IMG/VR virus record: IMGVR_UViG_3300037493_001428
Location: 1-44,132 of that record
DNA length: 44,132 bases
Strand: one strand, 5' to 3'
From: a virus
Part shown: piece after piece, positions 593 through 22,193 of the stretch
Numbering within the stretch: the first letter of the stretch is position 1
Layout: each line of letters begins with the position of its first letter
Notes under the pieces: generated by a model
The model's input: only the letters and a program-made list of their open reading frames with translations
Databases searched by the model: none
Told to the model about the DNA's origin: nothing
Made by a program: the position numbers and the translations under genes

Positions 593-1318
593 ATGTCAAC
601 ATTAAGAAAATTAGTTTCAGACGTAAGATCAACACATAAGCTGCTTTCTACAGACAGCTTAATTACTGATAGAGCTATTGCTTCTGAGATCAGAAACAAC
701 TCTTTATTACTCATCAAGAGAGAAACCAATCTTAGAAAACTTTGGGCTACAGATACTTTATTTACAACTATTCCTTGTTTAGAGATGTGCCAAGTGCCAA
801 TCTCTGAATGCTGTGACTTTGTAGATGAATGTACAGTTGCTAGAAGTAAATATAAACTTCCACGTGTATCAGAAGGAAATTACCAATATGTAATACAAGG
901 AGTTTATTCTATTAATGCAATGAGTGGAAGAGGAACTAAAATAAAAGAAATATCTGTTAATAGGTATATAAATCTTTTAAAACTTCCAATGATTAAAAAC
1001 GAAGCTTATTTTTGGATATCTAATGGATATCTTTATGTAAGTAATCCTGCATTACAAGCTATAAGATTTGTAGCATTCTTTGAAGAAGATGTAGAGAATG
1101 ACATTCTATATCCAGAATGTGGATGTGGAAAAGAATATACACTAGAAGAAATCTGTATCAATCCTCTAGATAAAGAGTTTGCATGTCCAGGATATTTAGA
1201 ACAACAAGTATTACAAATTACATCACAAAAACTTTTATCTACATACTTTAATATTAAAACAGATACATCACAAGATGGTGTAGATGGACAAGCACCAAAT
1301 GCAAAACCAACAAATTAA
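593..1318 (+). CDS. Conserved crAss-like neck/ring virion protein
   Basis: A 241-residue protein with no signal peptide or membrane segment. The N-terminal pattern (STHKLLSTDSLITDR, then a long helix and LLIKRE) is one I associate with a conserved structural neck or tail protein of Bacteroidota phages. The middle is predicted beta-rich. The C-terminal third has a Cys cluster (CGCGKEYTLEEICIN, then FACPG) that could bind metal, and the tail is disordered (DGVDGQAPNAKPTN). It sits between the phosphoesterase and the HU-like gene in the block that leads to the muzzle, the position expected for a ring or connector protein. Start chosen at the ATG 2 bases after the preceding stop. No enzymatic motif seen; the structural role is inferred from sequence pattern and position. 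Confidence 0.65.
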   Translation: MSTLRKLVSDVRSTHKLLSTDSLITDRAIASEIRNNSLLLIKRETNLRKLWATDTLFTTIPCLEMCQVPISECCDFVDECTVARSKYKLPRVSEGNYQYVIQGVYSINAMSGRGTKIKEISVNRYINLLKLPMIKNEAYFWISNGYLYVSNPALQAIRFVAFFEEDVENDILYPECGCGKEYTLEEICINPLDKEFACPGYLEQQVLQITSQKLLSTYFNIKTDTSQDGVDGQAPNAKPTN

Positions 1319-1811: not shown

Positions 1812-2786
1812 ATGAGCTACTACTATAAATATAATTTTGTTACCCCAGAGCCAGTCTACTCAACTGTAAAAGAAGAACTCAAGAGTTATTTTGATACAGG
1901 AGCTATAGATGATCTTTTATTTCCAACCTACTTAGACAAGTGTCTTAAGAAGCTTGGACGCACTACATATGTTATATCTGAACAAGTGCTGTTTATAGAA
2001 GACTTTGAGGCTAGACTTCCTGATAACTTTTATGCTGTTAGAGAAGCATGGATGTGTGCTGAAATACCACAACTTCCATATCAATCTGCTAACTCATTTT
2101 ATTCACAAGCAGCTTCTGCTACCACTATTCAAGTGGCTCCTGTAACTTATGGAGGAACTCCTTGTACTAATGTAGGATGTACAAATCCTCAGTGTGATGG
2201 ATTGTGTATGCCAGAATTAATTCAAGCTGTATACAAAACAAATACACAGATGACAAGATCATTCAAACAATCTTATTTACTTAAACCAGGAAACATTTCT
2301 GTTAAAAGTAAATGTGATGTAGGATATTCTGATAATTGGGAGTTTTATCAACAAGCTCCATCTATACATGAATCAACTCCTGGTGCTTCTAGTTATGACT
2401 CATTTGACATCAGAGATAATAAATTTGTCACTAACTTTAGAAATGGAGTGGTGCATTTAATATTCTATGCTACAGAGTATGATGAAATTGGAAATCAAAT
2501 GATTCCTGATAACTATCGTATCAGAGAGTTTGTAGAAGCATTCATTAAGTTTAAGATGTTTGAAACTCTTACAAACCAAACTAATGATGAGACTTTCAAT
2601 CAGCTACAACAAAAAATGATGTACCATAAACAGGCATATGAAGAAGCATTTATCATGGCTGATATTGAAGTGAAAAAACAAACTGCTTGGGAGAAACAAA
2701 GAAGAATTAAAAAAGATCTAAATAGATTGAATAGGTATGAGTTGCCAAATCGTACAAATAGATATGGTTGGAGACGTAATAATTAA
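1812..2786 (+). CDS. Head-tail adaptor / ring protein (P22 gp4 / T7 gp11-like)
   Basis: A 324-residue protein. The N-terminal helical part (VKEELKSYFDTGAIDDLLFP, then LDKCLKKLG and LPDNFYAVREAW) matches the pattern of the crAss-like neck protein generally compared with P22 gp4 or T7 gp11 adaptors, which bind the portal and seal the DNA channel. A Cys-rich insert at about residues 115-135 (CTNVGCTNPQCDGLC) may bind metal or form a loop. The C-terminus (about residues 285-324) is Arg/Lys/Asn-rich and probably disordered. Its place directly before the muzzle gene is the same as that of the adaptor ahead of the muzzle in the phi-crAss001 order as I recall it. Start is the ATG 1 base after the upstream stop (TAAAATG), which suggests coupled translation. 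Confidence 0.7.
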   Translation: MSYYYKYNFVTPEPVYSTVKEELKSYFDTGAIDDLLFPTYLDKCLKKLGRTTYVISEQVLFIEDFEARLPDNFYAVREAWMCAEIPQLPYQSANSFYSQAASATTIQVAPVTYGGTPCTNVGCTNPQCDGLCMPELIQAVYKTNTQMTRSFKQSYLLKPGNISVKSKCDVGYSDNWEFYQQAPSIHESTPGASSYDSFDIRDNKFVTNFRNGVVHLIFYATEYDEIGNQMIPDNYRIREFVEAFIKFKMFETLTNQTNDETFNQLQQKMMYHKQAYEEAFIMADIEVKKQTAWEKQRRIKKDLNRLNRYELPNRTNRYGWRRNN

Positions 2787-2791
2787 TAACT

Positions 2792-5700
2792 ATGGCAGAT
2801 ACTACACAAGATCCATCAGAACAAGGAGGAATTAAACAAGAGTATAATATTGCTACTACAGGTTTAAATTTAGATCAATCTCTTAATCAAGTTCCTAAAG
2901 GTAAACTAACGTACGCATTAAATGCTGCTGTTGAAAACTTTGATGCTAATTCTGTAAACTATCAAAATGAACCAGGGAATGAACTTTGCGTAACTTTTCC
3001 TATAGAATTTGTATTAATTGGAACACACTATATCCAAGAAAAAAGTAAACATATATTTTTTATTACAAATCCTGGAACAGGTGATTCAGAAATTGGATAT
3101 ATGGACAACAATGATTGTCAATATAAAACACTAGCTTCTGCAAAGTGTTTAAATTTCAAAATTGAATATCCTATTCATAAAGTTGTACATAAGATAACAA
3201 ATTGTGCTACAGAGATTTATTGGACAGATGGTTTTAATGATAGAAGATATTTAAACATTGATGATGTTCCCTATCAAATAAGATCTGGATCAATTATTTG
3301 TGATCCAGTTTATACAGATGTTTTAGATTGTAATCAGATAAAAGTTCAACCTAACTTTAGTATTCCTGAAATAACAATAAGTAAAGTTGTTACAGGAGGA
3401 AGTCTTATATCAGGTACATATCAATTTGCTGTGCAATATTGCGATGTTGCAGGTAATGCATACACTTCTTATTATTCAGTTACAAATCCTTTACCAATTG
3501 CTGATGTTTATATCACTACTCCTAATTTTAATTATGAGGTAGGAAAGTCTATTAGAATGACTATTAGCAATCTTGATTTAACAGGACAGTTTCAATATTT
3601 TAATGTTGCTGTAATAAAAACTATTAATAATATTCCATCAGTAGAACTGATAGGAATTTATTTTATTGAATCAGTTACCAAGAATGTTACATATACAGGT
3701 CAGAATACTACAGATATAAAATTAACAATAGCTGATATATTTCAAAAATATCCATACTATGATATTGCACAAGATCTTACAGTTGTGCAAGACATTCTTG
3801 TATGGGATCAATTAACTACAATTGATAGAATTAATTATCAGCAAATTGCAAACAGCATTCAACTTCAATGGGAGACATATAGAATTCCAGCTACAGAAAA
3901 TTATGCAGAAGAATTAAATGCTACTAACCTACGAGGATATCTTCGTGATGAAGTGTATGCATTTGAAATTGTATTCTTATTAAAGAATGGAAAACAAACA
4001 GATGGTTTCCATATTCCTGGTAGACCAATATCCCCATATGATTTCTCATATCCAGATGTTCCTGATACAAATCCTGACTTTATTGGAGAACCTGAATATT
4101 ATGATATTTATGGTGTTGGATATAGTCCATGGTGGAAAATTTATAATACAGGTAGAGTTTTAGGATTTTCAAACAGTCCTGATATTAATAATGCTACAGC
4201 ATATCAATTTGGAGAATTTGCTTATTGGGAATCAATAGAACAATATCCATGTAATGTTGATGTATGGGGAGATCTTGCTGGTCAATATATTAGACACCAC
4301 AAGTTTCCTGATGTTCTTGTAAGTCCTATATTTGAAGATACAATAGATTCATTGGGTGGACTTTCTACACAAATGCAAAATTGTGCTGTATTTCCAATTG
4401 GTGCAAGAATTGATACATCTCAATTAGCTAGTTCAATAAACTTATCAAATCTTACAAATGAGCAAAAAGCTGATATTGTAGGATTCAAAATTGTAAGAGG
4501 AGATAGAACAACAAATAAATCTATTGTTGGTAAAGGTATTCTTAGAAATGTAAATAAGTATGAAAGAGATGATCAAACATATTTCTTTCCTAATTACCCA
4601 TATAATGATCTTTCTGGAGATCCTTTCATAAATCAAACAAATAATGCATATGCTCAAATATGTGAACCTTGGTTAATTATTTGTACAGAAGGTGGTGAAT
4701 ATCAATTTACAGACTGTAATAGAAATAAACCACAAAGGGCGCAAATGGTTGCTGGTACCACTTATGAAATTTGTTCAACAACAAAGCCTACACATTTAAC
4801 TGGTGGTGCTACAATAGGTCCTGGTAATTATGACATGTGGCTTGCTACAGGTTGTGATGGTACAACAGGATATGATATACAATATTCCACACCCTTCACC
4901 ACAGACAATACAGCTCTTACAGCAGTACAAGAATATTTAAATGGTGCTGGAATTGGAGGCTGGGGATCATGTGATACAGTTTATAGAAAATTAGATTTAA
5001 ATGGGCAAATGGGTGACACTTGTGGAGGAACATTTGACTCATGTAGTTCTCTATATTACAAACTTGAAAGAGTTGAACAAGACCAAGGTGTGATGTTACC
5101 TGATATAGGAAGAATTTCTAAACTAAATTGTAGTATTGAAACTCCATTAGAACCAATAAGAAACATAACAGATATTGGATATAGACAAATATTTAATTCT
5201 CCTGAGACATCTTTTGGACAACCTTTCTTAGGAAATATTCTTAAGTTAGAGAATGTAATATATGGTAATGGAATTGCTCATTTCACTGAAGTCAGAAAGA
5301 ATGCAAAATACAAACTTCTGTCAGAAGAAGCACAAAGAGATGCTTTAAAGAGTTCTGAAGATATAGCTAACTATACAGATTCATTTAACGCATCTGCAAT
5401 GTTTGCTGCATATCAATCATACCTAACTATTTATGTAAATGGTATTACAAGAAAGAACTATGCATACTCATTTAATTCAATTGCTAGTTATGATAACTTT
5501 GCAAACATTGATAATGGTCTTCAAATTAAACAACGTAAAATAGATCGTAAGCAATATCTTATTCCAGGAGTACAATCTGTAGGAGATGAGTATAACATTA
5601 ATAACTATCAAAGAGAATCTTCTGTATTTATAAGAACAACAGGACTAGAACCTAATGAACCTCAATACAGTGCATTACCTTTTCCTGATCAAACTCCAAG

Positions 5701-7711
5701 TTTGCTATCTGGAGGAACAAGTATTGTTAAAGATTATTCTAGATTTACAATTGGTGACACAAACAATTGCTCCACTCCTGGATTAGAACAACCTATAAAA
5801 GTTGTATCATATTATGCTTCCATGAAAAATGTAATAGATAATCAATGGGGACAAATATATTCTTATGAAACAATTGATACAGGATTTCAATTTATGTTTA
5901 ATGAAACTGTATCAGGACCTATTCCAATCTTTGGTGGAGATACATTTATAAATAGATTTACATTTAAGACAAAACTTCCATACTTTATTGATAATAGAGT
6001 TGGGGCTCCTGATGATTCAGATATCTTTTATGATGAGATTGGTAATGTAGGTTATCCAAAATATTGGCATTCAGCACGTTCTATATTAGAAAATTATAGT
6101 CTTAGAAATGGAACTGTTCTTGCAAACTTTATTTCATACAAAGCACATAACTTTGATTGCCCTAATGATCCTGCAACTATTGCAATTACAAATACTGGTT
6201 CTTCAAGTAATAGAACTTTTTATGATGGATACTTCTATTTATTTGCATATGGAGTTCCAAACTTCTATTGTGAAAGTTCTTATAATGTAGATTTGCGTCA
6301 AGCATTTAATAATAAAGAAGGTGACTTCTGGCCACATGTTAATACAAGTATTCCTGATGATTGGGTACAAGAAAGTTATGTGCCAATTGCTCAAGATAAT
6401 ACATACAATTATAACGTAACTTTTTCTAAACAAAATAGAGAAAATACATTCACGCACTTGCCTCCTGATTGGGAAGGTCAATTGTGTTACACAAATTATC
6501 CATTTAGAGGTATATATTCAGAACCTCAAGTAAATAATGCTGATAATAGAGTGAATAACTGGTTGACATATTTACCATTGTCATTATATGATTTCCCACA
6601 GAACTATGGAAATCTTACATCATTGGATGGTATTCAGAATAAAGCTATACTTGCTAGATTTGAAAATAAGTCATTATTGTACAATAACTTATTAACGATT
6701 AATACAAGTAATCCTCAAGCTGCATACGTAGGTAATCCTAAATTATTTGCAGGAGCACCTCCAATTGATTTTGCTGAAACAGATCTTGGTTATGTAGGAA
6801 GTCAGAACAAGTTCTTGTTGAAAATTCCACAAGGACAAATAACTGTAGATGCTAAACGTGGACAAGTATTTCTTATATCTGGAACACAAGCTGTAGATCT
6901 TTCTCAATTTGGTTCAGGTGTAAACAGATTCTTTACAGATCATTTAGCATTTGAGGTTCTTAGATATTTTCCTCAAGTAGATACAGATAATCACTTTAAT
7001 GGTATTGGTTTACATGGGGTGTATGATTCTAAGTTTGATAGGGTTATTCTTACAAAACTTGATTACATTCCTATTGATAAAGATATTAAATATGATCCTG
7101 TAACAAAAGAGTATTATATAGAGACGACCACGTACATGAATGGTCCAACTACTACAACAACAACATCGTCAACATCAACAACTACTACATCAACATCTTC
7201 TACCACAACCACTACTACAACGTTAGTTTGTAATTCTTATAAATATTCACTTGATTTATATAGATGTGCAAATTGTACAAGTTTTGGTGCAGGAGAAATG
7301 TACAATGCTGTACCTTTAATAGTTGGAGGTTGGTATATTTACCAAGGATATAAAGTACAAGTGTCAGCATTTTTATTCTGTAGTCAAGGTGGTACATTAG
7401 TTAATATTGCACCTACATATCAAACTAGTTGTATAGCGTTAACGTGCCCTACAACTACCACCACAACAACATTAGCACCTGGTATATATTATCATAATGC
7501 AAGTCGTTATAATTGTGGAGTATGTACAAATCCTATTGGTGGAGGATCTTTTCAGAACTCTCAACCATTAACTCCAGGTAAATGGTATCTTACTTCTAAT
7601 GGAACTGTAGTTTATATTATTTCTTACGACACCTATTCACCAGGAGTAGCAACTAATAATGTTCTAGATAGTAACCAAGAAAATAATTGCATTGATATTA
7701 CTTGCCTTTAA
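2792..7711 (+). CDS. Muzzle-type giant tail protein with poly-Thr/Cys-module extension
   Basis: A 1,639-residue beta-rich protein. Its N-terminus (GGIKQEYNIATTGLNLDQSLNQVPKG in part) and overall size fit the crAss-like muzzle, the main distal tail protein, formerly called tail stabilisation protein. Residues 1-1450 are typical, ending with a conserved-looking stretch (RVILTKLDYIP, YYIE). At residues 1453-1477 a Thr/Ser-only linker begins, then a Cys-rich module, a second Thr linker (1554-1560) and a second related Cys module ending at the stop. In related proteins I would expect the region after YYIE to continue into the SWTLSF / SWISFHSYIPNFYI motif; here that motif starts the next cistron. 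The extension is probably exposed at the tail tip and may contact the host. No membrane segment. The TAA stop lies 2 bases before the next ATG. Confidence 0.75.
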   Translation: MADTTQDPSEQGGIKQEYNIATTGLNLDQSLNQVPKGKLTYALNAAVENFDANSVNYQNEPGNELCVTFPIEFVLIGTHYIQEKSKHIFFITNPGTGDSEIGYMDNNDCQYKTLASAKCLNFKIEYPIHKVVHKITNCATEIYWTDGFNDRRYLNIDDVPYQIRSGSIICDPVYTDVLDCNQIKVQPNFSIPEITISKVVTGGSLISGTYQFAVQYCDVAGNAYTSYYSVTNPLPIADVYITTPNFNYEVGKSIRMTISNLDLTGQFQYFNVAVIKTINNIPSVELIGIYFIESVTKNVTYTGQNTTDIKLTIADIFQKYPYYDIAQDLTVVQDILVWDQLTTIDRINYQQIANSIQLQWETYRIPATENYAEELNATNLRGYLRDEVYAFEIVFLLKNGKQTDGFHIPGRPISPYDFSYPDVPDTNPDFIGEPEYYDIYGVGYSPWWKIYNTGRVLGFSNSPDINNATAYQFGEFAYWESIEQYPCNVDVWGDLAGQYIRHHKFPDVLVSPIFEDTIDSLGGLSTQMQNCAVFPIGARIDTSQLASSINLSNLTNEQKADIVGFKIVRGDRTTNKSIVGKGILRNVNKYERDDQTYFFPNYPYNDLSGDPFINQTNNAYAQICEPWLIICTEGGEYQFTDCNRNKPQRAQMVAGTTYEICSTTKPTHLTGGATIGPGNYDMWLATGCDGTTGYDIQYSTPFTTDNTALTAVQEYLNGAGIGGWGSCDTVYRKLDLNGQMGDTCGGTFDSCSSLYYKLERVEQDQGVMLPDIGRISKLNCSIETPLEPIRNITDIGYRQIFNSPETSFGQPFLGNILKLENVIYGNGIAHFTEVRKNAKYKLLSEEAQRDALKSSEDIANYTDSFNASAMFAAYQSYLTIYVNGITRKNYAYSFNSIASYDNFANIDNGLQIKQRKIDRKQYLIPGVQSVGDEYNINNYQRESSVFIRTTGLEPNEPQYSALPFPDQTPSLLSGGTSIVKDYSRFTIGDTNNCSTPGLEQPIKVVSYYASMKNVIDNQWGQIYSYETIDTGFQFMFNETVSGPIPIFGGDTFINRFTFKTKLPYFIDNRVGAPDDSDIFYDEIGNVGYPKYWHSARSILENYSLRNGTVLANFISYKAHNFDCPNDPATIAITNTGSSSNRTFYDGYFYLFAYGVPNFYCESSYNVDLRQAFNNKEGDFWPHVNTSIPDDWVQESYVPIAQDNTYNYNVTFSKQNRENTFTHLPPDWEGQLCYTNYPFRGIYSEPQVNNADNRVNNWLTYLPLSLYDFPQNYGNLTSLDGIQNKAILARFENKSLLYNNLLTINTSNPQAAYVGNPKLFAGAPPIDFAETDLGYVGSQNKFLLKIPQGQITVDAKRGQVFLISGTQAVDLSQFGSGVNRFFTDHLAFEVLRYFPQVDTDNHFNGIGLHGVYDSKFDRVILTKLDYIPIDKDIKYDPVTKEYYIETTTYMNGPTTTTTTSSTSTTTTSTSSTTTTTTTLVCNSYKYSLDLYRCANCTSFGAGEMYNAVPLIVGGWYIYQGYKVQVSAFLFCSQGGTLVNIAPTYQTSCIALTCPTTTTTTTLAPGIYYHNASRYNCGVCTNPIGGGSFQNSQPLTPGKWYLTSNGTVVYIISYDTYSPGVATNNVLDSNQENNCIDITCL
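7148..7222 (+). repeat. Thr/Ser-coding trinucleotide run (linker 1)
   Basis: Twenty-five consecutive Thr or Ser codons, mostly ACA/ACT with a few TCN, encode muzzle residues 1453-1477. This is the longest of seven such tracts between 7148 and 9432. Confidence 0.95.
7451..7471 (+). repeat. Poly-Thr codon run (linker 2)
   Basis: Seven consecutive Thr codons separate two related Cys-rich modules at the end of the muzzle cistron (residues 1554-1560). Confidence 0.95.
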
Positions 7712-7713
7712 AT

Positions 7714-9441
7714 ATGGAAAATGATAATTTAATACCAGTAGTAACAAGAACACAAGTTTATTTAACAGATCCTGAATTCTTCTGTAATAAGTCTTGGACC
7801 TTGTCATTTAATTTCAACACTAAGTCTTGGATAAGCTTTCATAGTTATATTCCTAATTTCTATATAGGAGAAAACAATTTCTTCTATTCAGGAATTAATG
7901 GATGTTGTTCAGATCTTGAAGGTCAATTTACAGCATTAGTTGGAAATCCAGATAAACCTATTACAACAACAACTACTACAACTGGACCAATTCCACCAAC
8001 AACAACAACTACAACAGCCATTCCAATAGATTGTACAATAGAAGGAGTTATTGTTTTAACATATTGTGAACTAGAAGGAGATGCAATAATTACAGTTCCT
8101 CCAACAACAACTACTACTATTTGTCAAAGACCATTTGGTTTAAATGTTTATCAATTAGTAGAAGGTTATCAAATAGGAACAGATCCAGCAGTAGTATCTT
8201 CTGGAAGTTTAATAGATGCATGTTCAGCAATATCTACTATATCATCACTTGATCCATTGATATCTGTAAATTGGTTTGCAGGAGTTGCGAATAGTTTAGA
8301 TGTTTTAGAAATTGTTTATTATGGACCTGGTACTAATTGTATATTTGCTCCAGATGGATGGTATTTTACTCAAGAAGGATTGGTTAAAGGATTTGTTTAT
8401 CAAATCTTTAATGGATTTGTTAGTAGTATTGGATATTGTGATTGTGGAAATACAGATAAAATTATAGCACCTCCACCTAACATTGATGAATGTTGTGGAA
8501 TATTTGCTAGTTCAGGAGATGAAATTACTTACTATAATAACTCTGCAGTGAATACATTAATTGTTCCAGGATATACAACAGCATTAGGTACTGCAATGAC
8601 ATCCACTAAGTTTTGGTCTATTGATACAGACATTAAAGAATGGGATATAACAACTACACCATTCTCTGCTGTATATAATAGAGCTATAACTTTCCCTGGA
8701 GGATTTACAACATCATCAGGAATTGTAGCAATTAACAATACAACATTAGTTACTATAGATGATTCCACTTCTCCTCAAGATGTAGTAGAAATGGATATTA
8801 CTACAACTACAGGTGTTCCTACTGTAATGTTTAGTTTACAAGCTGATAGAGTTGCAATAGGAAATATGTTATATACAACTGGAGATAAACTTCTTGTAAT
8901 CAATCAAGATTCAATAACCTCTGATTATTATATTACACAATATGAATATTCTACAGGAACTTTAGAAGTTGACGTAAATATTGGAACAGTTTCTGCAGTT
9001 GGTTTATTTGAATGTGATTGTATTATTTATGTAATTGATCAATTTCAAAATACATATGTAATTGGTAAAACAGCTCCTTATGAACTATTTGGACATGCTT
9101 CATTAGGAATAGTTGGAACATTGTTTACACAAATAGGAACATGTGTACCAACTTCAATTACAGAAAATGCAAACCTGACAACCACAACTACAACAACATT
9201 TGTACCTAATACATATTGTCACACTGTAAGAGTGAATGGTTCATGTTCATTAAGTTGGATAGATTATTCAGGAACTATACAATTTCAAACTGTAACTAAC
9301 GATGCAATATATATTTGTGCTCAACTATATTCTATAACACAAAGTTGCACTAGTGGCTCATCAATTTCAATTAGTGGTGGAGTAGATTCTTGTACAGATG
9401 ATTTACAATGTACAACTACAACAACAACTACAATTCCTTAA
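7714..9441 (+). CDS. Second muzzle cistron: poly-Thr-linked modules and probable beta-propeller
   Basis: A 575-residue protein. The frame extends to a TTG at 7702 inside the muzzle gene, but the ATG at 7714, 2 bases after the muzzle stop, is the likelier start. Residues about 15-65 carry FFCNKSWTLSFNFNTKSW and SFHSYIPNFYIGENNFFYSG, a motif I know from the interior of muzzle-type proteins. Then come Thr runs (84-90, 96-101, 131-135), a Cys-bearing globular segment (about 136-250), a repetitive beta-rich segment at about 255-485 (recurring FWSID, VAINN, MLYTTGDKLLVIN, IIYVID strands) that looks like a beta-propeller, another Thr run (489-495), a small Cys module and a final Thr run (567-573) just before the stop. 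It is probably a tail-tip, host-contacting protein that assembles with the products before and after it. No enzymatic motif found. Confidence 0.65.
   Translation: MENDNLIPVVTRTQVYLTDPEFFCNKSWTLSFNFNTKSWISFHSYIPNFYIGENNFFYSGINGCCSDLEGQFTALVGNPDKPITTTTTTTGPIPPTTTTTTAIPIDCTIEGVIVLTYCELEGDAIITVPPTTTTTICQRPFGLNVYQLVEGYQIGTDPAVVSSGSLIDACSAISTISSLDPLISVNWFAGVANSLDVLEIVYYGPGTNCIFAPDGWYFTQEGLVKGFVYQIFNGFVSSIGYCDCGNTDKIIAPPPNIDECCGIFASSGDEITYYNNSAVNTLIVPGYTTALGTAMTSTKFWSIDTDIKEWDITTTPFSAVYNRAITFPGGFTTSSGIVAINNTTLVTIDDSTSPQDVVEMDITTTTGVPTVMFSLQADRVAIGNMLYTTGDKLLVINQDSITSDYYITQYEYSTGTLEVDVNIGTVSAVGLFECDCIIYVIDQFQNTYVIGKTAPYELFGHASLGIVGTLFTQIGTCVPTSITENANLTTTTTTTFVPNTYCHTVRVNGSCSLSWIDYSGTIQFQTVTNDAIYICAQLYSITQSCTSGSSISISGGVDSCTDDLQCTTTTTTTIP
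7963..8016 (+). repeat. Two poly-Thr codon runs (linkers 3 and 4)
   Basis: Seven Thr codons at 7963-7983 and six at 7999-8016 flank a short Gly/Pro-rich spacer (GPIPP). They follow the SFHSYIPNFYI segment and open the modular part of the second muzzle cistron. Confidence 0.95.
8104..8118 (+). repeat. Poly-Thr codon run (linker 5)
   Basis: Five Thr codons precede the globular Cys-bearing segment that starts ICQRPFG. Confidence 0.9.
9178..9198 (+). repeat. Poly-Thr codon run (linker 6)
   Basis: Seven Thr codons separate the propeller-like segment from a small Cys module. Confidence 0.95.
9412..9432 (+). repeat. Poly-Thr codon run (linker 7) at the cistron end
   Basis: Seven Thr codons followed only by Ile-Pro and a stop. 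A linker that leads to nothing in its own frame suggests that the gene once continued into the next cistron. Confidence 0.9.
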
Positions 9442-9445
9442 AATT

Positions 9446-10312
9446 ATGCCAAAGACAGTAGTAATAAAATTAACAAAAGCTGGACCCTTTTCAGGACCAT
9501 TTGACATCAGCACTGAGTATGGTGACGTTGTTGCTACAAATGTTTCTAAGAAACAATTAATATTTGGAATTAGTTACGTTGTTAACAATAATGTACAAAT
9601 GTTAATTATTGAATCTGTAGGTAAATGTAAAATCAGAAAAATATTTTCTTTAGAATCATTTACAATTATTGATTATGCTGAAGCAACGTATGTGCAATCT
9701 CAAACTGCTTGTTTGTGGAGACACTTAACTAATGTTCAGATTTACAATTATTTTTATGGAAGCATAGAACCATACATTATTGAGTATCCTTTTTCATATG
9801 AGATGAATGATGAAATCTTACAGAATGTAAAAGACTACACTAAGGCATATGAATACATTCCTATTCCTGATGGTGTATTTAATGACAATGCTAAAATTGA
9901 AACAAACGATAAATGGTTTAACAAAGCTATTCTATATAATGGACAACAAAGCACAGGAGTATTAGAACTTGTAGCAAAACCAATGCACAACTTACAAGCA
10001 TACAATTTATATCCCATCTTTAACGCTGATAGCAAAACTATTACGTATACTAAGAGTGATAACTTCTATCAGTATAATACATTCTGGGCATTACAGAAGA
10101 GTTCTCAGATTCCATTATTCAATACGTCTTGTGAAAGCCTTTCAATTGACAAGGTGATTAATCAATCTAACATGGACTATGGAACTAGATCATTTAAGAA
10201 AGCTACAATTAGAGCCAAAGAACTCAAAGTGAGACACATCTTAGATAACTCTGCAACAGTACACTTAGTTAGTCAATTCATAATAACTCCTGCACAAATC
10301 TCTTACAAATAA
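9446..10312 (+). CDS. Third muzzle cistron: C-terminal muzzle domain
   Basis: A 288-residue protein. A longer in-frame opening from 9398 would read the Thr-codon run in another frame (Gln-rich), so the ATG at 9446, 4 bases after the preceding stop, is chosen. Residues 1-70 form a small module (LTKAGPFSGPFDI, then VSKKQLIFG and SVGKCK) common as a short beta-module in tail proteins of such phages. Residues about 120-288 (VKDYTKAYEYIP, DKWFNKAILYNGQQ, TKSDNFYQYNTFW, SFKKATIRAKELKVR, LVSQFI) match what I recall as the C-terminal end of crAss-like muzzle proteins. The product probably assembles with the other two muzzle pieces. It ends in a TAATG overlap with the next gene, a sign of translational coupling. 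Confidence 0.65.
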   Translation: MPKTVVIKLTKAGPFSGPFDISTEYGDVVATNVSKKQLIFGISYVVNNNVQMLIIESVGKCKIRKIFSLESFTIIDYAEATYVQSQTACLWRHLTNVQIYNYFYGSIEPYIIEYPFSYEMNDEILQNVKDYTKAYEYIPIPDGVFNDNAKIETNDKWFNKAILYNGQQSTGVLELVAKPMHNLQAYNLYPIFNADSKTITYTKSDNFYQYNTFWALQKSSQIPLFNTSCESLSIDKVINQSNMDYGTRSFKKATIRAKELKVRHILDNSATVHLVSQFIITPAQISYK

Positions 10313-13300
10313 TGAATAGTGGTAAAGTAAAATGCACATGTGGACATTCCTGGAATAAAAAAGATTCTAGTAAGAAAGATATATACATATGTCACGAATG
10401 TGGTAGAGACAATAGTAACAACATGAAGAATGGTGGTGATATACCACAAGCACAAGATGGTATACAAAAAATGTCTTCTAGAGAAAAAAGAGGACATCAG
10501 CTTTTGCATAAAGAATCAGAAAATGCAAAAAAGGATAAACAGGAATTACAAACTACAGGAAAAATAAAAACTCCTCGTTCTATTGCATATAAATCAAAAG
10601 TAAAACCACAACCTGAATTAAAGCAAGATAATAGAACTGATTATGAAAGAGGATACGATGAAAGAAAAGGAAAGTTAAAAGAATTTAATAAAAATGTAGT
10701 TAGTAAAGCAGATGTTCTTACTGACATAATGCAATTAGGTAATTTTATTCCTCATCCATATGCTCAAATAGTTGGAGAGTTAGGAAATGTTGCAGGAGCA
10801 GGAATTGATTCTTATCAAGCTGCTAATGATTTTTCTAATGATGAATATGGTTCTGCAGCTATAAATGTAGGCTCTGCTATATTACCTTCTTTATTAGAAG
10901 CAGGAAGTTTTGCTAGAAATAGTAAATACTTACAACCAGGAGAAGTTATGTATCCATTAAGTCCACAAGCATTTGGTAATCCAGCAAGAACAAAGTACCT
11001 AGAATTATTTAATACAACAAGAGGAAGTAGTCCTTTCAAAACAAATGTAAATAGAACTTTATTAGGAACACTTGGAGCTGAAACAGTTTATGATATTCCT
11101 AAACAAAAAAATGGAGGATGGTTAGATAACTATAATGATTCTAAAACAACAGCTCCTGAAGGAATGGTAGGAGATGGATTCTCTAATGTAGGTAGAAACT
11201 ATTCTCCTGCATGGGGTGGACAGTTTCAAATGGGTGGATCTGTTTATCCAGTTAACTATGTTCCTCAAGCACAGAATGGTAAACTAACTTTCTTACAACC
11301 AACTAGTGATAAGTTACCACAAGGATATAGAATTCCTTATGATACTCCTAGTTCTGAAAGAGCTATGTCAATAGGAGGAGAAGATGGAGAACCAGCTTAT
11401 TTAATTCCTTCTTTTAAATATGGGCAACCACTAGATGATCCAATGGGAGAATTTAGAAAAACAGGAGAGCATCTTGGTGGACCATTTAAAACTTGGCAAG
11501 AAGCTGATGAGTGGGAAAGAACTGTAAGACACCCTGCTGTTGAGAAAGGAGAAAACATAATGTTTCCTCAAGAAAAATTTGCAATGGGAGGTTCTATTCC
11601 AGGAGCTGTAGGATTTACATACGCTCGTGAAGGAGCTCCTAGCAAAGGGCCACGTAGAAATCAAACTGATGTAACTGATGCTTCTGCACAGAATGGTAAA
11701 AATTTAAACCCTTATAAATACCCTCAACCAGATCATTATTCTAGGATGAATCCTTTTGTGATTCAAGATCCTCAAGCTAATATCTTTATAGGTGGAGTGA
11801 ATCCAACTTACTCAACAAAAGATTTCTCTATAGGAGCATCTGCTGTTGGTGTAGGTAATAAAGATTTTGTAAATCCTCTTGTTGATTATGGAATTAGAGG
11901 ATCATATAATCCCTCAAGAAATCTTTCAATCAATGCAAATTTATCAAATAACAATGTTGGAGCAGGACTCAAATATAGATTTCAAAATGGTGGAGAGATG
12001 TCTTACTATCAACATGGACTTGATTGGAAACCTAAAGGAATGGAGAATGGTGGATGGTTAGGTAAATATGAGCAAGCACAGAAAGGAAAAAAGATTGAAC
12101 CAAGAGATGAAAGATTACAAGCAATTAAACCTTCTACATCTACCTTTGTTAAGAAACCAAACTTTGAAGCAGAACAAGCTAAAGTTCGAAGAACATATGT
12201 AGACCAAGTTGGTAAACAAATGACTGAAGAAAAAAGAAGAAAGAAACTAACAAAAGAACAAAGAGAGAGAGAAGATTATAATGCTCGTAATGAACAAACA
12301 GGAACTGTTCAAGAATATGTTCCAGAAAGCACATGGGATAGAACAAAAGCAATTGTTTCTAATCCATTAACTGCTTATGGATATATAGCAAGAAATGAAA
12401 ATCTTCCTGCAAGATTTCAACATGGAGAAAGAAACAATTTAGATTATGCTCTTGATTGGGTGAATCCATTACAAGGAGTTGCAGCAGCTTCTGAAATTCC
12501 TGGAGAACTAAGTAGGGGAGAATATTTAAATGCAGGACTTAGTGCTCTTGATGCTGCAGATTTAGGTGTATATGCTAGAGGAGCAATGAAAGCTTCTAAA
12601 CCATTTGTTAAAAAAGCAGGACAGCAGTTGGGAAAAATACAAACAAGTATAAGTCCTGAGTTAGGACAATCTATATTATCTAATGCAAGTGATGCATCAA
12701 CTTCTTTTGGAAATAAAACAAAAAAATTTTTAAGAAATAATATTTTTACAGATAAAGCTTTTAATAGATTAGAAACAATTGATAGGTCTATGGTAAAATT
12801 ACCTAGAGCTATTAATCCATTTCATCATATTAAAGCTCAAAAGAGTTTAGATGAAGCTAATCAATGGATGAGTAATTGGTATAATGATCCAATAACAAGA
12901 AAAAAAATAAGAGAAGCTGCTAAAAATGAACTTGGTTATGGTTCTTTTGACCAATTTGAATTACTTGAAAATGTAGAAAATAAAAATTATTTAAGTGAGT
13001 TTGAATCAAACCTTAATAAAATTGATAAGTTTACAGAAGGTCAACGTGCAACACATGCAGGTAATTTTGGAGTTTCAGGTTGGAATCTTGATAGGTATAA
13101 AGATTTAAATAAAAGACAAAACTTAGTAAGTAAATATATAAGTCCTTCTAATATTACATCAACAGCAATACATGAAGGAAATCATGGTTTTACTGATGGC
13201 AATAATTTAATTGGAGGATATAAAGATGTATTACAATCTCCATTTGATATAAAAGATTTTAAACCTAGATTAAATGATGGTAGTTTTGAAAAACATTCAG

Positions 13301-16014
13301 ATTATTTATTAAATCCAACAGAAATAAATGCAAGGATTTCAGAAATAAGATATGAACATGGTTTAAAACCTGGAGAAGAATTAACACCAGAAAAAGTTGA
13401 TGAAATAATTAATAAAGGATTATCTGGTAAATCAAAAGTTGATCCTGAATTTTTTAAGTTAATAAATGATAGAAGTAAATTTAAAGACATGATGAATTAT
13501 GTTCCAGCAGCAATACCAGTTGCAGGAACTATTGGATTAGGTGCAGCTTCTCAATTAAATAATCAAGAAGAAGTTCCTGAATTTAAACGAGGAGGAATCA
13601 TTAAAGATGACAGAGGACAATGGGCTCATCCAGGAGAGATAACAGAAATAGGTTCCAACAATATAACCATGCAAGGAGTTCCTTTTGATGTTCTTGGTGT
13701 ATCAGATGAAGGAGATGTTCAATACATGAAAGCTAACAATCCTAAAAATTATAAATACAAAGGAAAGAAAGTGACAGAGTTTCCAATGGCTAAGAATGGT
13801 GTAAATCAACAAGATCAAAAAACTTTTGAACAATTAGATCAATTAACTAACTTTACAAACTATAATACAAAGCAACCTGGTGGTTGGTTAGATAAGTTTG
13901 CAGAGGGAGGAACATTACCTCCTGCAGAAGCAGCAACATTACCTACAGAGTCATACGATATTAAAGAAGGAGATACACTATTTGAAATTGCTCGTGATAA
14001 TAATGTTCCATTAAATACATTAGCAAGTGCAAATAATTTACCTAATCCAGATCTTATTAAAACAGGAAACAAGTTAGTAATTCCAAAACAATACAAAAAA
14101 GAATTATCACTTGCACAAATTCCTACAACTGATAATAAAAAGGTTGTTATAGATAACTTCAGTCCACATTACGATTATATTGTAGAAGGAGACAAAACTT
14201 ATTACAAAGTTAAAAGTGGAAAAACATGGGCAGATATTTCTGATAACAAACAAGCTAGAGCAAACCTAATGACTTTCTTAGATAAGAATAATTATTGGGC
14301 AGGATATGGTAGTGGTGAGAAAGCTAAGTATGATAAGGTACATCATCAACCTGTTGTAGTTCCTGGAAGTAAAGTTTCAAAAACTACACCAAGCGTAATA
14401 AGAAATACTGAAACAGGTAATAAACCTACAATTGTAAAACGACCTATTAATAAAGTAGTCAAAGAAGAACCAGGATTCTTTAGTGACGTTTCTGATTTTG
14501 TATATTCAGGAGTTAAATCTCTAGAGAAAAAATGGGAAGGTGTAAAAAAAGAAACTAGTGACATAGTTAAAAACGTAGAAGATTCTATATTAACAAGTGC
14601 TAATAATGCTATTCGTACAACAGAAGATGCATATCAAACTGTGATGAATGGTGTGGAGCGTAAGTATAAAACTTATACAGGAGATGATGATGATGTTAAA
14701 GTTACAACTAAAACTTCTCCAATACCTAAAACTGTAAAAGAATGGTATGGTAATAAATCTGGAGCTGAGATTACACAAGTTATAGATGCACCAAATACTG
14801 ATGGTAGAGTTTATAAACAACAAGTTTTACCTACATCTAATATTAAATTTGGAGTTAGAAATAGAGGAGAATATAAAGATATCAATACTGATGGTTTAGA
14901 AGTTACAACTTTTAATTCATTTACTAAAGATCCTCTTCCTGATAATACAACAGTATTAGCTGTCGACCCTAAAGGAAATTTACATACTGGAGCATACAAA
15001 GATTTCAAAGGACAGAAAGGTTATTTGTTTAGTAAAACTTTTAGAAATAACATTGTTGATTTTTCTGAAGTTAATGGAAAAAGTGAATACGTAAGTGGTG
15101 TAGCATCAGGAAATCCTAAATATCAACAACCAAAAGTCAAAGTGTTAGGTGATGATGGTAAAGTTGTAAATGGATCTTTGAATGTATTAGTGAAAGATGA
15201 TAGTAAAAAAGATTACTATGGTCAAGTTCAAGGTGGTCGTATATTATTTGTAAACCCAGATACAAAAGAACAATATCTTGTATCTGGAAGTATGAGTCAT
15301 ATTAAACAGAAGTTCAAAGAACTAAAAGGAAACTCTAAATACTTAGAAGCATATACACTAGACAATGGTACTTATTCTAGAGGATTATCTTATAAAGATA
15401 AAAAACTTACCAAGGATAGATTAAAATCATATGACTTAGAAAATACAGGTGGAGGTAATGGATTATATATAATAGATTACAAACAACCAGTTAGTAAGTA
15501 TCAAGAAGAATACATTGATAACATGCCAAATGTTAGAACTAAAAATGATACAAGCTATAAAAAAGGACATCCTTTAAAAAATGAAATAAAAAATATTGTA
15601 TTGCATCATACAGCATACACAGGTCCTAATGCTGAAAAAGAACTTAATAAACAATACATGACTCCAGGAAATAGTTCTTCTCATATTGTAATAGAAGAAA
15701 ATGGTAAAAGAAGTGTATATGCTTCTCCAGAACAAGTTACATTCCACGCTGGAGAATCAGAATGGAATAAAAGAAAAGATGTTAATGATTTTAGTATAGG
15801 TGTAGAATTTCAAGGAGACACAAATAAGAAACCATTAACTCAAGCACAAATAGAATCATTTGTTGAGTATTATGCTCCAATAGCTAAAAAATATAATTTA
15901 TCTTTGAAAGATATTATAACTCATCAAATGGTGGCTCCAGGAAGAAAACCTGATATAACTGAAAAACAATATGCTCGAATATTAAAATATATGAGAGATA
16001 AAAACTTTAAATAA
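10312..16014 (+). CDS. Multidomain cargo protein: zinc ribbon, zincin metalloprotease, LysM, N-acetylmuramoyl-L-alanine amidase
   Basis: A 1,900-residue protein, probably packaged and ejected. Visible domains: an N-terminal zinc ribbon (C8, C10, C27, C30); a small conserved phage module around residues 358-417 (AYLIPSF, KTGEHLG); a strand-rich Gly/Asn stretch at about 504-563 (SINANLSNN, GAGLKYRFQNGG); a zincin metalloprotease with H954EGNH958 and a probable third ligand E1004 in NPTEINAR; a conserved module at about 1091-1165 (RGQWAHPGE, NNITMQGV); a LysM at about 1214-1262 (IKEGDTLFEIARDNNV); and a C-terminal Amidase_2 domain. The amidase shows zinc-ligand candidates H1766, H1871 and D1881 with the same His-to-Asp spacing as AmpD. 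It likely cleaves peptidoglycan during DNA entry. Three GGWL[DG][KN][YF] motifs (267-274, 579-586, 1189-1196) sit between modules. Start overlaps the previous stop (TAATG). Confidence 0.8.
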   Translation: MNSGKVKCTCGHSWNKKDSSKKDIYICHECGRDNSNNMKNGGDIPQAQDGIQKMSSREKRGHQLLHKESENAKKDKQELQTTGKIKTPRSIAYKSKVKPQPELKQDNRTDYERGYDERKGKLKEFNKNVVSKADVLTDIMQLGNFIPHPYAQIVGELGNVAGAGIDSYQAANDFSNDEYGSAAINVGSAILPSLLEAGSFARNSKYLQPGEVMYPLSPQAFGNPARTKYLELFNTTRGSSPFKTNVNRTLLGTLGAETVYDIPKQKNGGWLDNYNDSKTTAPEGMVGDGFSNVGRNYSPAWGGQFQMGGSVYPVNYVPQAQNGKLTFLQPTSDKLPQGYRIPYDTPSSERAMSIGGEDGEPAYLIPSFKYGQPLDDPMGEFRKTGEHLGGPFKTWQEADEWERTVRHPAVEKGENIMFPQEKFAMGGSIPGAVGFTYAREGAPSKGPRRNQTDVTDASAQNGKNLNPYKYPQPDHYSRMNPFVIQDPQANIFIGGVNPTYSTKDFSIGASAVGVGNKDFVNPLVDYGIRGSYNPSRNLSINANLSNNNVGAGLKYRFQNGGEMSYYQHGLDWKPKGMENGGWLGKYEQAQKGKKIEPRDERLQAIKPSTSTFVKKPNFEAEQAKVRRTYVDQVGKQMTEEKRRKKLTKEQREREDYNARNEQTGTVQEYVPESTWDRTKAIVSNPLTAYGYIARNENLPARFQHGERNNLDYALDWVNPLQGVAAASEIPGELSRGEYLNAGLSALDAADLGVYARGAMKASKPFVKKAGQQLGKIQTSISPELGQSILSNASDASTSFGNKTKKFLRNNIFTDKAFNRLETIDRSMVKLPRAINPFHHIKAQKSLDEANQWMSNWYNDPITRKKIREAAKNELGYGSFDQFELLENVENKNYLSEFESNLNKIDKFTEGQRATHAGNFGVSGWNLDRYKDLNKRQNLVSKYISPSNITSTAIHEGNHGFTDGNNLIGGYKDVLQSPFDIKDFKPRLNDGSFEKHSDYLLNPTEINARISEIRYEHGLKPGEELTPEKVDEIINKGLSGKSKVDPEFFKLINDRSKFKDMMNYVPAAIPVAGTIGLGAASQLNNQEEVPEFKRGGIIKDDRGQWAHPGEITEIGSNNITMQGVPFDVLGVSDEGDVQYMKANNPKNYKYKGKKVTEFPMAKNGVNQQDQKTFEQLDQLTNFTNYNTKQPGGWLDKFAEGGTLPPAEAATLPTESYDIKEGDTLFEIARDNNVPLNTLASANNLPNPDLIKTGNKLVIPKQYKKELSLAQIPTTDNKKVVIDNFSPHYDYIVEGDKTYYKVKSGKTWADISDNKQARANLMTFLDKNNYWAGYGSGEKAKYDKVHHQPVVVPGSKVSKTTPSVIRNTETGNKPTIVKRPINKVVKEEPGFFSDVSDFVYSGVKSLEKKWEGVKKETSDIVKNVEDSILTSANNAIRTTEDAYQTVMNGVERKYKTYTGDDDDVKVTTKTSPIPKTVKEWYGNKSGAEITQVIDAPNTDGRVYKQQVLPTSNIKFGVRNRGEYKDINTDGLEVTTFNSFTKDPLPDNTTVLAVDPKGNLHTGAYKDFKGQKGYLFSKTFRNNIVDFSEVNGKSEYVSGVASGNPKYQQPKVKVLGDDGKVVNGSLNVLVKDDSKKDYYGQVQGGRILFVNPDTKEQYLVSGSMSHIKQKFKELKGNSKYLEAYTLDNGTYSRGLSYKDKKLTKDRLKSYDLENTGGGNGLYIIDYKQPVSKYQEEYIDNMPNVRTKNDTSYKKGHPLKNEIKNIVLHHTAYTGPNAEKELNKQYMTPGNSSSHIVIEENGKRSVYASPEQVTFHAGESEWNKRKDVNDFSIGVEFQGDTNKKPLTQAQIESFVEYYAPIAKKYNLSLKDIITHQMVAPGRKPDITEKQYARILKYMRDKNFK
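13141..13350 (+). other. Zincin metalloprotease motif region in the amidase-bearing cargo protein
   Basis: Residues about 944-1013 carry AIHEGNH (954-958), a classical HExxH zinc site, and 46 residues later NPTEINAR with E1004 as a likely third ligand, so it may be catalytically competent. The substrate is unknown; processing of virion proteins is an inference. Confidence 0.7.
13951..14097 (+). other. LysM peptidoglycan-binding domain
   Basis: Residues about 1214-1262 fit LysM: YxIKxGDTLFEIA, NVPLNTLASANNL, GNKLVIP. A weaker LysM-like stretch (YYKVKSGKTWADIS) follows at about 1300. Both would anchor the downstream amidase to peptidoglycan. Confidence 0.85.
15589..16011 (+). other. Amidase_2 (PGRP-type) catalytic domain
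   Basis: Residues about 1760-1900. LHHTA supplies H1766, SSHIVI and TFHAG follow, then GVEFQG, and ITHQMVAPGRKPD supplies H1871 and D1881. The layout is that of zinc-dependent N-acetylmuramoyl-L-alanine amidases such as AmpD and T7 lysozyme. Confidence 0.88.
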
Positions 16015-19574: not shown

Positions 19575-22193
19575 ATGGCCTCATGGACAGATAAAATCCC
19601 TACCTTCAATCCTTATGTTCAGCAATTGCCTGTAGAGGCAATGGTTGAAGTGGGTATGCAGAAGCAAAAGCAATACAATGAAGGGATTCAAAAAATACAA
19701 ACCAACATTGATAATATTGCTGGTCTAGATCTTGTTAGAGATATAGATAAATCTTATTTACAATCTAAGCTTAATCAATTAGGTAATGATACAAAATATT
19801 TAGCTGCTGCTGATTTCTCTGATTTTCAAATGGTTAACTCTGTAACAGGTATGGCTAATCAAATTGGTAAGGATGCTACTGTTCAAAGTGCTGTTGGAAA
19901 TACAGCAAAGTATAGAAGAGAGATGGCACTTGCTGAAAAGTTTAGAAAAGAGGGTAAGTCATCTGCAAATAGAGAATATGATTTAAGTGTAGCTGCTAAT
20001 AGTTGGATGGATAATCCTGATCTTAATGCAGGTTTTTCAGGAAAGGCAAAACAATATCATGATGTAGATAAAAAAGTTTTAGAAGTGATTGGTAAATTAT
20101 CTCCAAAGATTGATATTAAAGACATACCTTATAATGTTATAAAAAACAAAGATGGTAGCATTAACTATAATGGTATTTCTGCTGCAATGCAAAAGATAAC
20201 TAGCAGTGAAATTTCACCAGAACAAATTAGAACTGCTGTAAACTCAATGCTTGATTCAAATGATCTTGATGAACTTGCTTCTCAAGGAAGATATAACTAC
20301 AGAGGATATGGAGTGGAAGAGCTTCAATCATCTGCTACTGCAGGATATGAATCTAGTAAATTACAATATAAAGGTAATTTAGAAAGATTAAAACAACAAC
20401 TACTTACCACTACAGATCTTGGTCAACAAGAAGAGATAAACAAGTCTATCAATTTTTATACAAAGCAATTAGGCGATGGGACTACACCAGGAGAATTACA
20501 ATCTTCATATGAACAACTAGTATCTTCTATTTCTGATAATCCAGATGGAGCTAGATCTATGCTATACAAAAAGAACTGGTTAGATCAAATAGCAAATGGT
20601 TTCCAACACAGAGATGTAAAAGATGAGATTGTAGAAAACCCATTAAGAAAAGATTGGTGGGAAGGCAAGAAGTTTGAATTTGATCAAATCAAAGAAGCTA
20701 ACAATCAGGCATATCGTAAGAGAACTTTGGAACAAGGTGATCGTGCTCTTGATATAAAAGCAATAGAGGCACAAACTAAAGCAGACAAGGATAAAGGAAC
20801 ATATGATCCATTCTTTCAAAATAGTGGAAATCCTTCTACAAGTAATTTGGAGTCAATGAACAATTACCTAAATTATAATTCACAGTTGGCAAGTACAAAT
20901 GATCAAATATTATCATCCCTTGCAAATGGTGCATCTTCATTAACAACAAAGGTTTCACCAGACATTATTAAAACAAACATTGACAAGTATAGAATTGGAA
21001 AGTATGCTCCTAAAACAATGGATGAGAAGAGAATGTTTGATCAATATATCCAGAATCAAAACACTCTTGACACTCAAGCAGCAATGCTTGCTGAAATAGA
21101 AGACCAAGAATATAGAAAACTTACAGGGGATAAGAAAGGATATGAGCAAGCAACTAGTCAACTTTTAAGTAAGAATGGTAATTTTTCTGTATACTCAGCA
21201 GGTACAAAATATACATTCACTCCAAAAGAAGTGTATAATTATTTGAAAAAAGAAAAATCAAAAACAGTTGGTTCATCTGGTAGCTCAATGACTCCTATGA
21301 GCAATATGTCTCAAACTACTTTTACATATGTTGATGATGCTTCTCTTACAAAAAGAGAAAAGTTATTAAAAGCTGCATTTGCTAAAAGATATAATAGTGC
21401 AAATACAAGTACAGGTAATGCTGCAAGTGATCAGTATATCTCTGGAATAAAAACTATAATTAATAGAAATAAACCTGTTGAAACTGCAGTTGCTACAAAA
21501 GTTGCAGATAGACTTTCAACTATTACAGGAGGATTTAAAACAGAACAGTCTGCTTTGAAGTTTAAAGATACAAACTGGAAAGCTAATTTTGCTAGTGATA
21601 TGGCAAACATTGCTTCAGCAGACATGCGAGAAGGTACAGCAGGCAAAGAGTACGATCCAAAGAAAACGCTTGGTTGGTTAACAAAAGATGAGATTGGAAA
21701 TATTGATTTTCAATTCAAACGACAAGGTACTCAATATTATGTACACGTCACCAATAAAAGTGATGATGGAAAGACACAAGTTGTACCAGTTACATTAGAC
21801 TTTGTTAGAAAGAATCAAAGTTTAGGTGAGAATTACCTGACTCCAAATCCAGACTTAGGAGAAGTGACATTAAGAAATAATAAAACTACAAACATATTGA
21901 AAGATTTTAAACATGCACATCTTCCAACAAGTAAGTTTGGTGGAATGAATTCTGTAGGAAATAGAACAGTAACTTTACCAGTTGCTGCAGACTACAATGT
22001 TGGTAATGATGGAAACATTTATGCAGTAATTAAACTTTTAACTAATACAGGAAATTGGTTAGAATTCAATGTTCCATATGCTATAGATAAAAACGAATTT
22101 GAAAGTCAATATCTTCCATCCATGAATGATGGAAAAGTTATAGCTTTATTTAAAACTAAATATCCAAATATTGAACAATTAATTTCTAGATAA
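19575..22193 (+). CDS. Conserved crAss-like cargo protein
   Basis: An 872-residue protein beginning MASWTDKIPTFNPYVQQLP, a start I associate with a conserved internal virion protein lying just ahead of the giant polymerase gene in crAss-like phages. Residues about 20-300 are helical and partly coiled coil (EVGMQKQKQYNEGIQKIQTN, RYNYRGYGVEELQS). Residues about 300-620 remain helical and charged. Residues 620-872 are more mixed, with beta strands near the C-terminus (QYYVHVTNK, NWLEFNVPY). There is no signal peptide, membrane segment or enzymatic motif. First gene after the candidate promoter at 19527, and coupled to the next gene by a TAATG overlap, so the two products are likely made in fixed ratio. 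Function unknown; packaging into the capsid or tail as an ejected protein is inferred from context. Confidence 0.62.
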   Translation: MASWTDKIPTFNPYVQQLPVEAMVEVGMQKQKQYNEGIQKIQTNIDNIAGLDLVRDIDKSYLQSKLNQLGNDTKYLAAADFSDFQMVNSVTGMANQIGKDATVQSAVGNTAKYRREMALAEKFRKEGKSSANREYDLSVAANSWMDNPDLNAGFSGKAKQYHDVDKKVLEVIGKLSPKIDIKDIPYNVIKNKDGSINYNGISAAMQKITSSEISPEQIRTAVNSMLDSNDLDELASQGRYNYRGYGVEELQSSATAGYESSKLQYKGNLERLKQQLLTTTDLGQQEEINKSINFYTKQLGDGTTPGELQSSYEQLVSSISDNPDGARSMLYKKNWLDQIANGFQHRDVKDEIVENPLRKDWWEGKKFEFDQIKEANNQAYRKRTLEQGDRALDIKAIEAQTKADKDKGTYDPFFQNSGNPSTSNLESMNNYLNYNSQLASTNDQILSSLANGASSLTTKVSPDIIKTNIDKYRIGKYAPKTMDEKRMFDQYIQNQNTLDTQAAMLAEIEDQEYRKLTGDKKGYEQATSQLLSKNGNFSVYSAGTKYTFTPKEVYNYLKKEKSKTVGSSGSSMTPMSNMSQTTFTYVDDASLTKREKLLKAAFAKRYNSANTSTGNAASDQYISGIKTIINRNKPVETAVATKVADRLSTITGGFKTEQSALKFKDTNWKANFASDMANIASADMREGTAGKEYDPKKTLGWLTKDEIGNIDFQFKRQGTQYYVHVTNKSDDGKTQVVPVTLDFVRKNQSLGENYLTPNPDLGEVTLRNNKTTNILKDFKHAHLPTSKFGGMNSVGNRTVTLPVAADYNVGNDGNIYAVIKLLTNTGNWLEFNVPYAIDKNEFESQYLPSMNDGKVIALFKTKYPNIEQLISR

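Follow-up and report, generated by a model that had tools for sequence, protein, structure and literature searches.

The stretch of DNA considered here, IMG/VR virus record IMGVR_UViG_3300037493_001428 (positions 1 to 44,132, the whole 44,132 nucleotides (nt) being referred to as the window), contains three adjacent open reading frames (ORFs) that together probably encode one crassvirus muzzle, the gate at the tail tip, from a gene that is broken at two beta-propeller loops one blade apart, here called J1 and J2. What is found is a protein of ancestral type with two cut sites, encoded in separate cistrons, in whose relatives the state of J1 has changed repeatedly and modules have been exchanged at poly-Thr tracts and cistron ends. 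In the proposed arrangement ORF1 would give the bulk of the protein, residues 1-66 of ORF2 (seg2) one blade's worth of strands, and ORF3 the C-terminal end; the closely spaced cistrons would be translated separately and their products would assemble non-covalently into the usual muzzle. The parts are listed below, where L207 is an IMG/VR locus in which the muzzle is a single open frame of 1,659 amino acids (aa), L089 is a related contig, and pLDDT is the predicted local distance difference test score.

2792-7711, plus strand: ORF1, the muzzle bulk plus the J1 tail
2792..7111, plus strand: ORF1 residues 1-1440, the core up to the strand preceding J1, comprising by homology the ring-joining, IG and crass domains and most of the propeller
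7112..7708, plus strand: J1 tail of ORF1, with two Cys-containing modules of ~75 aa (about 7223-7450 and 7472-7708), absent from L207
7148..7222, plus strand: first linker of the J1 tail, poly-Thr/Ser by sequence
7451..7471, plus strand: second linker of the J1 tail, poly-Thr
7714 (ATG) to 9441, plus strand: ORF2, starting 2 bases after the ORF1 stop
7714..7911, plus strand: seg2, ORF2 residues 1-66, four propeller strands (C and D of one blade, A and B of the next, strands taken from the L207 model)
7912..9438, plus strand: J2 tail of ORF2, poly-Thr-linked, with three well-folded modules and disordered linkers in an AlphaFold model
8131..8442, plus strand: alpha/beta module, ORF2 residues 140-243, pLDDT about 78-90
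8491..9153, plus strand: exogenous second beta-propeller module, ORF2 residues 260-480, pLDDT up to 95
9205..9417, plus strand: small beta module, ORF2 residues 498-568, with most of its length at pLDDT 81-90; a poly-Thr stub closes the C-terminus
9446 (ATG) to 10312, plus strand: ORF3, starting 4 bases after the ORF2 stop
9446..9712, plus strand: ORF3 residues 1-89, an anchor-type N-terminal domain acquired at J2, homologous to upstream small genes
9713..10309, plus strand: ORF3 residues 90-288, the C-terminal muzzle piece, with the last propeller strands and beyond

The spacings of two and four bases agree with the 2-4 bases given in an earlier note on this DNA, made from the sequence alone. 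Longer starts are possible in frame, at TTG 7702 for ORF2 and ATG 9398 for ORF3; relatives conserve 7714 and 9446.

How are three frames recognised as one muzzle? Matches to the Pfam families of ring protein 1, ring protein 2 and the muzzle identify the window as a Crassvirales contig and the locus as its muzzle locus. ORF1 matches PF25731 (crAss_MUZ) at 1.6e-35, with 123 bits against a curated cut-off of 27, and PHROG 37948 at 4e-100. Positions 1191-1745 of that PHROG fall on ORF1 and positions 2051-2099 on the start of ORF2 (5e-9). ORF3 has no match in PHROG or Pfam, such that annotation pipelines would miss its muzzle origin and would label seg2-bearing ORFs and ORF3 as unrelated hypothetical genes. 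The connection is made by L207, which is collinear with all three frames: ORF1 1-1446 aligns to L207 15-1408 with 54% identity, ORF2 10-64 to L207 1405-1459 with 67% identity, and ORF3 90-288 to L207 1461-1659 with 70% identity (E=1e-98). A single L207 residue is unmatched at J2 and no core residues are lost; the C-terminal propeller strands and the end of the protein are thus present, split over seg2 and ORF3 90-288, and the extra material can be assigned to the ORF1 tail after ~1446, the ORF2 tail after 66 and ORF3 1-89. The same three-cistron layout recurs in contig L088, where the core is 100% identical and the last module 98.7% identical, and in L089, where the core is 91% identical.

All three parts lie within one gene in each of the five annotated relatives examined, phi-crAss001 gp44, phi17:2 gp43, csAssE-Sib, Fpv1 gp30 and Lbo-JY46. 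The earlier note had proposed that a conserved run expected inside one muzzle is distributed over three adjacent cistrons, and both the PHROG matches to ORF1 and the start of ORF2 and the L207 alignment of ORF3 bear this out. It had also raised the possibility that the parts are normally separate genes; outside the clade, the annotated relatives and 41 of 80 distant loci have them in a single gene. A single polypeptide is the usual state of the muzzle, replaced here by three cistrons, and this state is not taken as defining the family.

The alignment with gp44 and other relatives that the earlier note had called for was made, and in the single chain of gp44 it places J1 at 1199/1200 (between DVYFTYKD and HCLCYSE) and J2 at 1236/1237 (between SEFYAFKDG and KMWEQF). 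Since the IG2/crass region of gp44 ends near residue 1021 (PMC10172136), both sites belong to the propeller's second half. When the C-terminal half of L207 is modelled with AlphaFold (570 aa, 28 sequences), J1 has strand 287-293 before it and strand 334-339 after it, and J2 falls in the turn that links strand 362-367 to strand 371-376. Four main strands separate the two (334-339, 344-347, 355-358 and 362-367), so J1 and J2 occupy equivalent positions of successive blades. If a blade is taken as an A-B followed by a C-D hairpin, both cuts would correspond to B-C loops and would share their face of the propeller with the IG1 insertion of blade 2/3. In Foldseek the best matches of this model are the phi-crAss001 muzzle (7qol_P, 2.4e-12; 7qok_A, 4.3e-12), followed by podovirus nozzles. 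Searches of PDB sequences with phmmer, using each ORF, and with a profile of the C-terminal half gave no useful match, and gp44 was reached through structure comparison only. L207 itself carries a poly-Thr tract (TTTTTTTQIPG, residues about 1080-1095) at a different loop, which suggests that other muzzle loops also accept such insertions.

A cut gene need not mean a cut protein, and the junctions themselves bear on whether the frames are re-joined. The ATG of ORF3 is at the conserved first residue in 91/91 relatives. Stop-to-start spacing is mostly -1 to 15 nt, rising to 0.25-3.5 kb where other genes intervene, and the frame offsets of 0, +1 and +2 number 23, 43 and 25 at J2 and 7, 9 and 14 at J1. 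Together with the lack of an intron, the conserved ATG and the mixed offsets indicate that these are ordinary separate cistrons, probably coupled. Programmed frameshifting or stop-hopping could be imagined to join the frames into one mature chain, given that they are adjacent and that their open frames overlap slightly (16 nt for ORF1/ORF2 and about 44 nt for ORF2/ORF3). However, all three offsets occur at both joints, the spacing varies to the extent of those kilobase insertions, the ORF3 start is invariant, and a fusion would place poly-Thr arrays and a second propeller within a hairpin; in the joint contexts of relatives that were inspected no shared slippery motif was seen, nor was there a constant frame offset. 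Such a mechanism is therefore very improbable. Slightly less probable still is that the pieces are re-joined by a group I or II intron, an intein or a split intein. Homing endonucleases are annotated in crAss001, which makes mobile introns plausible in the group, but the intervening DNA encodes poly-Thr modules in open frame and contains stop and start codons, and the tails of relatives terminate in poly-Thr stubs or modules. Moreover, window positions 2000-11000 give no Rfam match to an intron RNA at E<=1, and no intein family is among the Pfam matches of ORF1 to ORF3. With mixed offsets and a conserved ATG against the first, and no Rfam match or intein family in support of the second, the frameshift, intron and intein models were rejected.

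The separate cistrons are moreover not peculiar to this one contig. Two scans of viral contigs with the window proteins gave 149 full-core loci, or 114 after clustering at 95% core identity; as the loci here and below come from scans seeded with the window proteins or with single-chain relatives, the counts are not natural frequencies. In this set J2 is cut in all 110 relatives whose contigs include both of its sides, and J1 is fused in 84 of the 114 and cut in 30. One of the 30, L030, has an apparent internal break in the core that is likely error or damage, and its exclusion from the tree counts leaves a J1 cut in 29 of 113. Members with J1 fused are mostly within 1-2 residues of the expected length, some having in-frame inserts of up to 131 aa. 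A single gene with stops introduced by faulty sequencing or assembly, an idea that a metagenomic contig with error-prone poly-Thr repeats might invite, is refuted for the clade by these comparisons: independent contigs repeat the layout at identities of 100%, 91% and below, start codons are conserved, and 29 non-redundant J1-cut and 110 J2-cut members are to hand. This explanation can be given next to no weight.

The two cuts differ in history. On the core tree J1 requires 8 changes, at least 7 of them forced by well-supported branches, although such counts cannot separate the gain of a cut from re-fusion. J2 by comparison is fixed in the clade and linked to the gain of the N-terminal domain of ORF3. 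A scan with an alignment of single-chain relatives found the 80 further, distant IMG/VR loci already mentioned, 41 of them fused at both sites, 17 with just the J1 cut, 20 with just the J2 cut and 2 with both; a scan with the C-terminal half of Lbo-JY46 alone found no relatives. The lineage cut at J1 only is distant, has J2 fused, and in most members has seg2 preceded by a leader of its own, some 40-90 residues long; its J1 cut is independent. A tree of 1,626 columns makes L207 sister to the J2-cut clade, and the simplest reading is a single origin of the J2 cut at the base of that clade. In some relatives open reading frames lie inside the J1 or J2 gap (L014:6994-8253, L117:12750-16222, L114:12591-13940), and in L117 and L087 a gene with the anchor domain discussed below lies within the muzzle gap.

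Close relatives differ by block replacements. Between the window-like L088 and L089 the DNA is about 90% identical over the locus; in a blastn comparison of the window with L089, homology is lost at 7471, where the second poly-Thr tract ends, and is regained at 7711, the final base of the ORF1 stop codon, from which it follows that the last J1 module was replaced as a unit in L089. Relatives were compared in 36 non-overlapping pairs, of which 16 differ by block changes, giving 40 breakpoints in total. For 19 of these a poly-Thr tract is no more than 25 nt away (8.2 expected), and 10 are at a cistron end (1.6 expected), so that 25 of the 40 fall at one or the other against an expected 9.0 (simulated P<=5e-5).

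The muzzle pieces are under purifying selection and the J1 tail is loose. Between the window and L089 the ratio of nonsynonymous to synonymous substitution rates (dN/dS) is 0.12 for the core, 0.29 for the 66 codons of seg2 and 0.04 for the C-terminal part of ORF3, and it is 0.28 for the N-terminal domain of ORF3, 0.24 for the J2 tail and 0.63 for the J1 tail. These values bear on the idea that ORF1 alone is the functional muzzle, with ORF2 and ORF3 as remnants or as separate adhesins outside the muzzle fold. ORF2 does consist mostly of modules, and ORF3 begins with a domain of the kind that heads independent small genes. Yet across the clade identity is mostly 70-90% for seg2 and 65-88% for the C-terminal part of ORF3, the latter with its dN/dS of 0.04, and L105:12743-13096 and L167:12738-13085 retain seg2 nearly by itself, in an ORF of about 115 codons whose tail measures just 48 residues. 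A propeller built without ORF2 and ORF3 would also miss four strands and the C-terminal end. An ORF1-only muzzle is accordingly improbable, if less so than re-joining of the chains.

From where did ORF3 acquire its front? Residues 1-89 share homology with the domain (MTVLITLTTAGADSGPFNLYS...) at the N-terminus of small genes found 3.5-5.5 kb upstream of the muzzle, of which most clade members have one to three per genome, and in which this anchor domain is followed by poly-Thr and variable modules. The window begins too far downstream to include its own. Examples are L248:1501-2508, L048:354-665 and L166:3008-4213, with long poly-Thr tracts and highly variable C-terminal modules; the one gene tested has no Pfam match. 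Within the 80 distant loci the anchor domain fronts the C-terminal piece in every J2-cut locus and in no J2-fused locus. The fused L207 already has an upstream anchor-type gene, of 335 aa, and a donor was thus at hand before the J2 cut. The earlier note had described the extra material at both joints as poly-Thr-linked; this is so on the C-terminal side of both, but the added N-terminus of ORF3 is a different, recognisable domain. The anchor genes precede the ring genes, at about the place of THA/THB in crAss001, which gave rise to the idea of the ORF3 domain as a tail hub. That idea is not claimed here; it was dropped after a hidden Markov model of the domain found no match in crAss001 and Pfam gave none.

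The tails draw on a shared stock of modules: in other loci, homologues occur in the J1 tails, the J2 tails and an anchor gene upstream. The alpha/beta module of ORF2 has homologues in 103 loci, in 102 of them within a seg2-bearing ORF, and homologues of its propeller module occur at J1 in L014 and L239; in Foldseek this propeller matches many others, including the YWTD domain of LDLR. Poly-Thr is present in 108/109 J2 tails and 26/29 J1 tails, including six module-less stubs. Domains found in the J1 tails of other, related muzzles include Fib_succ_major, PKD_5, LRR and DUF285, the first of which occurs in two distant lineages. An adjacent 159-aa gene, L248:670-1149, also ends in a small poly-Thr-linked module, which indicates that in these phages the linker-and-module scheme is common to several proteins.

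What, then, would be the advantage of a muzzle in pieces? With each cut, what was an internal loop would end in a free C-terminus, where modules of surface type can be mounted through poly-Thr linkers, and modules would be swapped through recombination between poly-Thr-coding repeats and the cistron end. A free C-terminus may be favoured because exchange there needs no downstream frame to be held. From the tail tip the modules would point towards the host and bind to its surface. At the base of the clade the J2 cut would have come about along with the joining of an anchor-type domain ahead of the C-terminal piece, and the state of J1 has changed several times. That the three chains assemble into one gate is suggested by the purifying selection on the core and on the C-terminal part of ORF3 and by the low AlphaFold confidence of the middle piece in isolation. 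We lean slightly towards the broader proposal that cutting the muzzle at propeller loops is a recurrent evolvability device, in which a three-chain gate offers C-terminal mounts for swaps freed from constraints of frame and of two-sided folding.

A number of observations pull the other way. The low confidence of seg2 alone fits a need for partners without proving it, and the L207 model that locates the cuts is only moderate (pLDDT 67; predicted template modelling score (pTM) 0.60). The single origin of the J2 cut has a support of just 86%, and a tree of 545 columns nests L207 inside the J2-cut clade; L207 may possibly have been re-fused from the J2-cut state. Contact with, or recognition of, the host surface by the modules is read from fold and family. 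Finally, L057 has J1 cut with a tail of only 3 residues, from which it follows that modules are not necessary for a cut. The earlier view of an ancestral gene opened by module insertion is supported, in the form of a single gene cut at two loops.

The neighbourhood of the three cistrons is the one expected for a muzzle, which lies directly downstream of ring protein 1:

593..1318, plus strand: ring protein 2 gene (PF25702, 1.1e-18), syntenic context
1322-1810: DNA-binding-like protein gene, weak match
1812..2786, plus strand: ring protein 1 gene (PF24228, 1.3e-9), immediately 5' of the muzzle, as in phi-crAss001

On the other side, a 1,900-aa ORF (10312-16014) starts on the last base of the ORF3 stop and has a Cys-rich start, a LysM domain at 1215-1258 and a C-terminal amidase_2 domain. 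Further on, 22193-35686 is a single open frame of 4,497 aa, which sits where crAss-like phages have their large virion RNA-polymerase genes.

If the three chains assemble, the locus would be a case of a viral gate with a naturally split beta-propeller, one loop of which has been cut repeatedly and in parallel, and it suggests sites at the tail tip where these phages mount exchangeable host-contact domains. A literature search, which covered little of the subscription literature, found no report of a muzzle encoded in pieces and no muzzle structure beyond that of phi-crAss001. Among the closest known systems is gp44 of that phage (PDB 7QOK/7QOL, PF25731), which is homologous along its length and has the same neighbourhood of ring 2, IHF-like, ring 1 and muzzle genes. 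It differs in being one chain of 1371 aa with short hairpins at J1 and J2, which in the window are gene boundaries with module tails. Muzzle length is noted to vary through insertions in the crass and IG2 regions (PMC10172136); J1 and J2 lie C-terminal of these insertions. The nozzles of podoviruses (P22 gp10, SU10, Pam1, VP1 and Pan3) also place a beta-propeller at the tail tip but have no crass domain, and the likeness is one of fold only. We know of no cut gene among the nozzle entries matched. The surface-adhesin repertoire of the Bacteroidota (Fib_succ_major, PF09603; PKD_5, PF19406; DUF285, PF03382; LRR) comprises the domains seen in the J1 tails of related muzzles, where they are mounted on a tail-tip protein; no module of the window itself matches Pfam significantly. 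Also close are the virion structural proteins of Cellulophaga phages phi17:2 and phi4:1 and Flavobacterium phage Fpv1 (PHROG 37948, 15100), in which an in-frame insert of ~200-250 aa shows that the same loop takes added material; unlike the window, they keep the muzzle as one uncut gene with a short hairpin at J2.

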